A DNA stretch of 54,044 nt from Methanoculleus sp. Lineage in GTDB: Archaea > Halobacteriota > Methanomicrobia > Methanomicrobiales > Methanomicrobiaceae. This document shows positions 19,526-21,163 of the stretch, in pieces (within the stretch, counting starts at the first letter, position 1; the number at the start of each line of letters is the position of its first letter). Where the stretch lies: assembly GCA_011048835.1 (NCBI GenBank), contig DSDF01000018.1:1-54044 (forward strand), written 5' to 3'. The notes beneath the pieces are model-generated. The model was not told where the DNA came from. It saw only the letters and a list, made by a program, of their open reading frames with translations, and searched no databases. The translations under genes and the position numbers were made by a program.

Positions 19526-19810
19526 TCACCGGACTCGTTTCCCGCGTTTCCTGAGGCTTTCGATCTCCTCTCCCCCAACGACGCGCAGGAGAAATGTGCC
19601 GTGGCAGGGTTTGGTGTAGGGAAAGATGATATGCTCCCCCTCGACGCCCACGAGAATGGGGGGCACCCCGATGATGTGGACGTCGAAGATCCTGAACCCG
19701 GGGGGCACCTCATAGTATTCGGGGGTGTTTTTTCGGATGTACTCCGCCGCCTCCCGGAACGAGCAGTGGCGGATGAGCACTTCGTAGTTCAGTTTTTCAA
19801 CGCAACCCAT
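19526..19810 (-). CDS. DUF1894 family protein (methanogen-specific)
   Basis: A 94-residue protein starting MGCVEKLNYEVLIRHCSF and containing YYEVPPGFRIFD, IIGVPPILV and FPYTKPCHGTF. These are hallmarks of DUF1894, a family I know only from methanogens and of unknown role. One conserved cysteine lies in KPCHGT and another in RHCSF. It is the last gene of an operon after fdhD and DUF1890, with a 22-base overlap with DUF1890. The tight overlap with a formate dehydrogenase maturation gene suggests a link with molybdenum/tungsten or formate enzymes, which is inference only. Confidence 0.88.
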   Translation of the reverse strand: MGCVEKLNYEVLIRHCSFREAAEYIRKNTPEYYEVPPGFRIFDVHIIGVPPILVGVEGEHIIFPYTKPCHGTFLLRVVGGEEIESLRKRGKRVR

Positions 19811-20286
19811 GCGACCACCTCCCTGAGTGTCCGTTTCATGGGGAGGGGATTGTGCCCGCCCCTGATGATGTGCTTTTCGCACCGGATGCCTTCCAGCCCC
19901 GACGCCAGTTCCTCCGCGTGCTCCCCGAAGATGAGGGCGATGGTCGCCCCCCCCGAGATCGAGGCGAGGGTCGCGGCGTAGGCAACCCCGGCATCGTTGT
20001 GAATGAAGACAAAGCAAAAATCGTAATCCTGCTCCCCTTCGGCAAGTTCTGCGATGCATTCGTCGATGTCCATGTGCGCCCCGAGGTAATGGCCTGCGGG
20101 GTCCGCCACCGCGAGGTGGGCGCAGGCCGACGGCGTCCCCGCCACCATTGCATCAATGCCGCAGGCCGCCAATTCGTTGAGCAGAAAGAGCGCCCCGCTC
20201 GTCTGCGCGCAGAGCTGCGGGCAGCCGAGCATCACCAGCGCGGTGCGGGGCGTGCCACCCCCACCGCCCTCATGTGCGGATATCAT
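19789..20286 (-). CDS. DUF1890 family protein (methanogen-specific)
   Basis: A 165-residue protein with a Rossmann-like look: TALVMLGCPQLCAQTSGALF near the start, then VADPAGHYLGAHMDIDECIAE, FVFIHNDAGVAYAATL and IRGGHNPLPMKRTLREVV. It matches my memory of DUF1890, found in methanogens next to DUF1894. The cysteines in GCPQLCAQ could bind metal or sulfur. Its ATG at 20286 overlaps the fdhD stop by four bases and its end overlaps DUF1894 by 22. The first 12 residues (glycine-rich) are poorly conserved in style, so the start may be slightly further in. Confidence 0.88.
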   Translation of the reverse strand: MISAHEGGGGGTPRTALVMLGCPQLCAQTSGALFLLNELAACGIDAMVAGTPSACAHLAVADPAGHYLGAHMDIDECIAELAEGEQDYDFCFVFIHNDAGVAYAATLASISGGATIALIFGEHAEELASGLEGIRCEKHIIRGGHNPLPMKRTLREVVAWVALKN

Positions 20287-21044
20287 AGCTTTTCGTCCTC
20301 TCGGGGTTCTCGCACTGCCCGCACAATGCCCTCGATCCGCTGCGGGTTGGTGTAGATGGTGAACCGGTTCTGCCGTGAAAAGCAGATGAGCGTGATCCCG
20401 GTCTGGTCCGCGGTGAGGATTCCGGCGCTGGTGGAGGCGGCCCTGGAGACGATGATGGGGATGCCGGCATTGGCCGACTTCGCCACCATGCCCGCAGGCT
20501 GCCTCCCGGTACAGCCGATGAAACAGTTGCCCCGGTCGATTCCCTGCAGTTCGGCATGGCCCACGACCTTATCCACCGTATTGTGCCGCCCGATATCGCA
20601 GCTCTTGACCACCAGCCCTTCGTCAGAGAAGAGCACCGAGCAGTGCACCCCGCCGGTCTTCTTCCAGGTCTCCGACTCGATTTCCCGGGTGATCCGGCGG
20701 ACCTGCTCCGGGCTGATACAGAGGGACGAGTGCACCGGTTTCGGCACCCCGCGGATGCCGCACCCCCCGCCCGACCGGAACTCGCGTTCGATCCCGAGCC
20801 TGCTCTCCGCCTCGACCCAGATCTCGTTTCTGTCGACACTCACTCCTTCCACATGTTCGGCGAGCCCCTCGCAGATGACGAACCCCGCGCCGAGTTCCTC
20901 CCGCTGGTCGGGACTGGCGATCTGTTCGGCGAGGAGCTGGTCGTTCAGGTAGATCAGGTACCGCTCCTCGCGGATCACCGGTTCGGTGATCCGCACAACC
21001 TCATCTCCGTCGACCCGGATCGCCGGGAGCATATCCATGACCAT
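20283..21044 (-). CDS. fdhD: Formate dehydrogenase accessory sulfurtransferase FdhD
   Basis: FdhD carries sulfur from a cysteine desulfurase to the molybdenum or tungsten bis-pterin cofactor of formate dehydrogenase. The 253-residue protein starts at ATG 21044 after a strong GGAGGAGG site. The active loop reads SGGGCGIRG (C95); in E. coli the loop has two cysteines (CxxC), and here the second is arginine. Downstream are GGVHCSVLF, CDIGRHNTVDKV, GCTGRQPAGMVAK and IVSRAASTSAGI, all typical. It heads an operon with DUF1890 and DUF1894. Formate dehydrogenase itself is not in this window. Confidence 0.93.
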   Translation of the reverse strand: MVMDMLPAIRVDGDEVVRITEPVIREERYLIYLNDQLLAEQIASPDQREELGAGFVICEGLAEHVEGVSVDRNEIWVEAESRLGIEREFRSGGGCGIRGVPKPVHSSLCISPEQVRRITREIESETWKKTGGVHCSVLFSDEGLVVKSCDIGRHNTVDKVVGHAELQGIDRGNCFIGCTGRQPAGMVAKSANAGIPIIVSRAASTSAGILTADQTGITLICFSRQNRFTIYTNPQRIEGIVRAVREPREDEKL

Positions 21045-21163
21045 GCACACCCTCCTCCTTCTCTGGTGATATGGTCTCCTGAGGGTCATAAATGACGCGG
21101 GCCCGCACCGGCCCGGTGAACCGTGTGTGATATTAATGAGAGGGCGGGGGTAATAGATCACCA

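Follow-up and report, generated by a model that had tools for sequence, protein, structure and literature searches.

An fdhD-DUF1890-DUF1894 operon of Methanomicrobiales and the candidate role of its DUF pair in sulfur delivery

In the window (the whole 54,044-nucleotide stretch of Methanoculleus sp. DNA that was analysed), a gene of the FdhD family is followed, each overlapping the next, by two genes for proteins of the families DUF1890 and DUF1894, to which no function is assigned. The locus raises the question of what these two proteins do beside an FdhD. The first-pass annotation had read the three genes as fused by overlap and suggested that the DUF proteins act in sulfur transfer or in the maturation of molybdenum or tungsten enzymes.

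The operon and its distribution

All three genes lie on the minus strand. The first is fdhD (20283..21044), which encodes a protein of 253 aa assigned to the subfamily FdhD2 described below; it is followed by the genes for a DUF1890 protein of 165 aa (19789..20286) and a DUF1894 protein of 94 aa (19526..19810). As the coordinates confirm, the overlaps are exactly 4 bases (fdhD/DUF1890) and 22 bases (DUF1890/DUF1894), so that overlap was correctly described, while the talk of fusion was loose, these being three separate genes. A purine-rich ribosome-binding site precedes each start (AGGAGGAGG, GAGAGGA and GGGAGGTGG), and for fdhD it was placed at 21051..21058 on the minus strand (GGAGGAGG), 5' of the ATG at 21044. 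The identities given earlier also stand. The FdhD matches PF02634 with 183 bits (cut-off 27.2) and TIGR00129 with 161 bits (cut-off 140.9), and the DUF proteins match PF09001 (149 bits) and PF08979 (128 bits), respectively, both above the curated Pfam cut-offs. Divergent genes for an aminotransferase, LysA and an OB-fold protein lie upstream of the operon, and a convergent U32 peptidase gene lies downstream.

We surveyed 197 genomes of the phylum and 61 genomes of the order Methanomicrobiales (60 with DUF1890), together with 14 control genomes, through which alone the Methanobacteria and Methanococci are represented. Family codes (f1-f30), genome codes (G) and locus codes (L) are labels of this survey, and the lineage names Methanosarcina, Methanothrix, Methanocella and, in some cases, Methanoculleus are those that we take certain surveyed genomes to carry. 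Among the 197 phylum genomes, FdhD was found in 146, DUF1894 in 90 and DUF1890 in 67. Within the phylum, the two DUF families occur in methanogens and in families resembling ANME archaea, and M. jannaschii and M. acetivorans, both methanogens, are the only controls with either one; M. acetivorans has both. The earlier label of the families as methanogen-only was thus nearly right, the ANME-like families being the exception.

In Methanomicrobiales, 35 of the 60 DUF1890-bearing genomes, from five of six families, have fdhD as the codirectional gene directly 5' of DUF1890 (4/11 genomes in f1, 10/10 in f2, 7/10 in f3, 0/10 in f4, 5/10 in f5 and 9/10 in f6; one of the ten f3 genomes is without DUF1890). 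The arrangement is therefore not due to chance, and fdhD-DUF1890-DUF1894 is a real, conserved operon. Outside the order, a codirectional adjacent fdhD was found in none of about 33 DUF1890 genomes, and in two genomes of f10 fdhD and the DUF pair are convergent. The first-pass annotation had staked its proposal on the pair not lying mostly away from fdhD; such separation is the rule outside Methanomicrobiales and not within it. The locus also varies inside the order: moeB is inserted between fdhD and DUF1890 in the tenth f6 genome, the pair is separated from fdhD2 in f4 with neither lost, and in other genera of f1 a second DUF1894 copy stands 5' of fdhD2 (L043-L045, L109-L111). The same flanking genes recur across the order, and therefore the operon there probably goes back to a single ancestral arrangement rather than to many independent ones.

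Several further DUF1894 layouts were observed. The window's own genome has a second, divergent DUF1894 at a contig end (L002 1501-1767; G000:C96:4884-5150). Tandem DUF1894 domains occupy a single open frame at L055 (9137-9820, G009) and in G039:C212, both f14 genomes without DUF1890. At four f8 loci (L048, L049, L121, L122), in genomes that we take to be Methanosarcina, DUF1890-DUF1894 is divergent from another DUF1894; the neighbours are aspartokinase and PurM-like genes and an unannotated c21 protein, and sulfur-transfer genes are lacking nearby. DUF1894 alone is retained in other genera of f8.

An FdhD subfamily with an altered loop

We coined the name FdhD2 for the clade that holds all DUF1890-linked FdhDs. 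In a maximum-likelihood tree, 22 linked and 7 unlinked FdhDs, all from Methanomicrobiales, form one clade (support 98/95) that excludes the ordinary FdhDs with SGCGG found in this order. When aligned with E. coli FdhD (4pde), 2pw9 and methanogen FdhDs, the linked proteins show a two-residue gap in the sulfur-transfer loop, where Cys-Gly is missing (SGCGG to SG-G), and in none of the 22 tabulated is the canonical loop position, C121 of the E. coli CxxC, occupied by Cys. A CxxxC-TGRQP signature is present in 21 of these 22 and absent from the loop-Cys FdhDs; in the window it comprises Cys174 and Cys178 (20511..20525, minus strand). The window protein has a single Cys in the loop, Cys95 of RSGGGCGIRG (20760..20762, minus strand), which lies off the canonical Cys in multiple alignments, yet is aligned to it by pairwise HMMER. 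By treating this FdhD as a plain sulfurtransferase, the first-pass annotation overlooked the loss of the loop cysteine in its subfamily.

Loss of the motif is itself not new, since published work describes CXXC as unconserved, and often absent, in FdhD group III and the cysteines of R. capsulatus FdsC as not essential (PMC6239281). It follows from these reports that loss of the loop Cys need not require a new partner. The new element is the link of a loop-Cys-less FdhD subfamily to DUF1890-DUF1894.

In seven genomes (G074, G091, G116, G140, G149, G169 and G173), the sole detected FdhD is FdhD2 and a full-length formate dehydrogenase match is present, so that FdhD2 is likely sufficient for this enzyme there; for G149 and two genomes without a fetched sequence, the FdhD2 assignment comes from score and place. 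The window's own assembly (96% complete) contains two formylmethanofuran dehydrogenase B genes, and no full formate dehydrogenase was found in it; the module may therefore serve formylmethanofuran dehydrogenase in this genome.

The 116 FdhDs of the order have two kinds of partner. DUF1890 adjoins 35 of them and a class-V aminotransferase of the cysteine-desulfurase kind adjoins 26, and none of the 116 adjoins both within 400 bases (chance 2e-5 assuming independence, which does not hold for related genomes). Ordinary FdhDs have as neighbours SufS-like cysteine desulfurase, LarE, NifS-IscU, NadA, MoeB, MoaD and MoaE; these were read by eye from open reading frames, and LarE, the SufS-like protein, MoeB and MoaD were confirmed on relatives. 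In f2 (Methanoculleus), the operon runs nifS-cutA-fdhD2-DUF1890-DUF1894, with nifS first and its product matching TIGR03402 at 608 bits (cut-off 531). The presence of nifS makes a plain replacement of cysteine desulfurase by the DUF pair less likely, and the pair is therefore considered here as a substitute for the desulfurase or an extension of it.

Two other forms of FdhD were seen in the survey. In f4, a single frame of about 515 aa encodes two fused FdhD2 domains (L100 1767-3314 in G136; L101 7382-8932 in G164), and the fused gene at L100 is divergent from ycaO-tfuA-moeB. A further FdhD group with varied loop residues is sister to FdhD2 (93/76; L104 7627-8463 in G188, L102 8088-8870, L107 7110-7859), and its G188 member adjoins formate dehydrogenase genes.

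Contexts away from fdhD and features of the DUF proteins

Independent support for a role in sulfur transfer, as had been suggested, comes from loci away from fdhD, where the pair often adjoins ycaO-tfuA, moeB, moaD/SAMP, ncs6, thiI, O-acetylhomoserine sulfhydrylase, cysteine synthase or nifS genes. It follows ycaO-tfuA in f10 and f22 (L059, L060, L063, L124), with the order moeB-ycaO-tfuA-DUF1890-DUF1894 at L124, and the YcaO-TfuA members at these four loci match McrA-thioamidation equivalogs above cut-off. For the known YcaO-TfuA McrA thioamidation locus (eLife 2017, PMC5589413), the passages searched report moaD, moaE, moeB, thiF and sufS nearby and do not name the DUF pair. Carrier genes flank the pair at L127 of f22 (moeB-DUF1890-DUF1894-moaD) and at L119 of f6 (fdhD2-moeB-DUF1890-DUF1894-moaD), while in part of f4 it lies beside an Ncs6-like ATPase, a SAMP2/ThiS-like protein and MoeB. 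A second copy of the pair stands directly before thiI at L030, L031 and L041; at L030 and L041 this copy comes right after metX and O-acetylhomoserine sulfhydrylase, and cysteine synthase is near in L041. In f14, DUF1894 occurs alone, about 1.2-2.5 kb from ycaO.

We compared the occurrence of eleven sulfur-transfer families in 90 DUF1890 intervals of up to 12.4 kb with that in 39 randomly placed intervals from the same order and neighbouring families. Sulfur-transfer genes lie near 58 of the 90 DUF1890 loci vs 2 of 39 random intervals and, with FdhD left out, near 38 of 90 vs 2 of 39 (Fisher 9e-6); the gene list was drawn up after some loci had been seen, and the genomes are not phylogenetically independent. 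At the level of families, the association is present in 8 of 12 and absent from Methanosarcina, parts of f1, f3 and f4, f7 and f30. About a third of the DUF1890 loci, including all those of Methanosarcina, have no listed sulfur gene within 6 kb.

The more specific suggestion of Mo/W enzyme maturation finds support within Methanomicrobiales alone. The YcaO-TfuA, ThiI and sulfhydrylase neighbours are foreign to Mo/W enzymes, and hence such maturation would be only one of several destinations.

Both proteins have conserved cysteines, as first noted from the window alone. No variation was seen in 53 DUF1890 sequences at Cys22 of a Gly-Cys-Pro motif (20221..20223, minus strand), Gln28, Asp62, Tyr67 or His145, and very little at His96 and Asp98. 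DUF1894 has Cys3 (19802..19804, minus strand) in 82 of 82 sequences and Cys69, in Lys-Pro-Cys-x-Gly (19604..19606, minus strand), in 80 of 81. Their nearest PDB relatives are 1kjn (MTH0777; phmmer 4e-21) for DUF1890 and 1z9v (MTH0776; phmmer 2.4e-14) for DUF1894, two Methanothermobacter structural-genomics entries of the same families. These entries carry no assigned function and no relation to fdhD is known from them. Their consecutive numbers make it probable that the two genes are neighbours in Methanothermobacter as well. A literature search for DUF1890, DUF1894 and MTH777 returned no paper naming either family, and other PDB and MTH terms led to unrelated or structure-benchmark papers only.

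The AF2 model of DUF1890 (pLDDT 82) superposes on 1kjn with a VIA Z of 21.8 and an rmsd of 1.8 over 148 residues. Its other fold matches are generic Rossmann folds; a DUF1890 fold pointing to DsrE/TusD or XdhC was considered and set aside, 1kjn being the only clear match. The fold matches listed include no DsrE-like chain, an absence that is uninformative. In the model, Cys22, His96 and His145 follow strands, which suggests a common edge, so that Cys22 and the conserved His and Asp residues probably lie at one edge of the sheet. The DUF1894 model (pLDDT 40, from six sequences) was too poor for use.

Proposed sulfur delivery and the alternatives to it

The contexts described above are best explained if DUF1890-DUF1894 is a putative sulfur-delivery pair of methanogens and ANME archaea, dedicated in Methanomicrobiales mainly to FdhD2 and bis-MGD (Mo/W) enzymes. 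For this operon, we give an even chance to the pair delivering sulfur with FdhD2 as the acceptor, for the benefit of Mo/W bis-MGD enzymes. Delivery to FdhD2 by the two DUF proteins is proposed because the subfamily has lost the loop Cys that in ordinary FdhD takes persulfide from a cysteine desulfurase. Sulfur from cysteine via NifS, or from sulfide, would be taken up on the DUF1890 and DUF1894 cysteines. DUF1890, which is Rossmann-like with an invariant Gly-Cys-Pro, His and Asp, would be the thiol-active protein, and DUF1894, with its invariant Cys3 and near-invariant Cys69, a small partner handing on persulfide or sulfide, perhaps to the CxxxC of FdhD2. By analogy with FdhD, FdhD2 would hold the bis-MGD cofactor and its sulfido ligand site, and would then supply the sulfido ligand of the bis-MGD enzymes. 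In other lineages, the same pair may serve other acceptors, such as the MoeB/MoaD carriers, YcaO-TfuA (McrA thioglycine) and ThiI/Ncs6 (tRNA). From gene context we infer the sulfur chemistry, the direction of transfer, the physical interaction of the partners, and the replacement or extension of a desulfurase step by the pair. The loci without sulfur genes, the separation in f4, the loop Cys of the window FdhD itself, the published dispensability of loop cysteines and the nifS gene in the operon all count against sulfur delivery, although the nifS linkage is also counted in its favour.

Known systems offer partial parallels. FdhD or FdsC with IscS (E. coli, R. capsulatus) shares with the present module the FdhD family, above curated cut-offs, the same presumed bis-MGD job and, in Methanoculleus, a nifS gene in the operon; FdhD2 differs in the deleted loop CxxC/C, in having CxxxC-TGRQP instead, and in its apparent co-transcription with DUF1890 and DUF1894. 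The TusA-TusBCD-TusE and DsrEFH-DsrC relays would be comparable in working only, in that small Cys proteins link a desulfurase to several acceptors, and no sequence relation of the DUF pair to them was found.

A wider possibility, which we consider less likely, is a general sulfur-distribution hub in which one relay would load FdhD2, MoaD/SAMP, YcaO-TfuA (McrA thioglycine) and ThiI/Ncs6 (tRNA), possibly from free sulfide. If true, such a hub would let an FdhD subfamily work without its own catalytic-loop cysteine, and two protein families known so far from structures alone would acquire a function open to test. Confinement of the pair to Mo/W-pterin enzyme maturation, through metal handling or cofactor insertion, is unlikely in our view. 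FdhD2, MoeB and MoaD are all molybdopterin genes, formylmethanofuran dehydrogenase B was present in 7 of 7 genomes tested, and the nearest non-self folds of the DUF1890 model include the Mo-enzyme chaperone family XdhC (2we7, Z 12.7; 3on5, Z 11.4). However, the XdhC matches are tied with unrelated Rossmann folds (UbiX, malonyl-CoA reductase) and so carry no weight, and this explanation must dismiss the YcaO, ThiI and sulfhydrylase neighbours as incidental, although the contiguous ycaO-tfuA of f10 and f22, the DUF1894 near ycaO in f14 and the DUF1890-DUF1894-thiI order in f2, f3 and f5 are unrelated to pterin.

We give still less credence to the pair being no carrier but a regulator or a redox sensor, of sulfide for instance, that is peculiar to methanogens and co-transcribed with sulfur genes. 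Scattered contexts, small cysteine-containing proteins and the frequent lack of an enzyme partner in the operon (Methanosarcina, Methanothrix) would suit a sensor, but there is no DNA-binding or known ligand domain, conservation is centred on one Cys plus His/Asp in the manner of an enzyme site, and the close translational overlap of the pair with FdhD2 and ThiI points to a stoichiometric partnership. Equally improbable is that Methanomicrobiales inherited the fdhD linkage as one ancestral gene order and have retained it with no bearing on function. In favour of this, the locus has constant neighbours across the order (OB-fold protein, lysA, aminotransferase), and either fdhD2 or the pair is able to move away; the second DUF1894 that directly precedes fdhD2 in other f1 genera indicates, however, that the association was kept with a different copy, and the convergent fdhD in f10 and the recurrence of the sulfur-gene association in eight families also speak against it. 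Under the sulfur-delivery reading, one FdhD subfamily is predicted to work by a changed mechanism, and the candidate pair has solved structures, invariant cysteines and definite acceptors, which makes it testable by knock-out in a genetically tractable species.

Two gene fusions were encountered in the course of the survey. At L081 (10327-12993), a PAPS-reductase-like domain is fused to a SufS-type cysteine desulfurase (about 880 aa), near a loop-Cys fdhD and a second DUF1894 and beside a PHO4/Pit-type transporter; homologous long open reading frames occur in L046 and L080. In the window's genus, a candidate fusion of a Mo-pterin oxidoreductase with a C-terminal cysteine desulfurase lies beside a histidine-methyltransferase-like gene at L207 (6957-10391, G188) and at L208 (7259-10730) in the window's own genome (G000), where it is split over two overlapping frames and is therefore broken or mis-assembled. 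We set aside the idea that this fusion is novel, its layout and its methyltransferase-like neighbour being those of the metallopterin-dependent ergothioneine synthase (PMC9516567).
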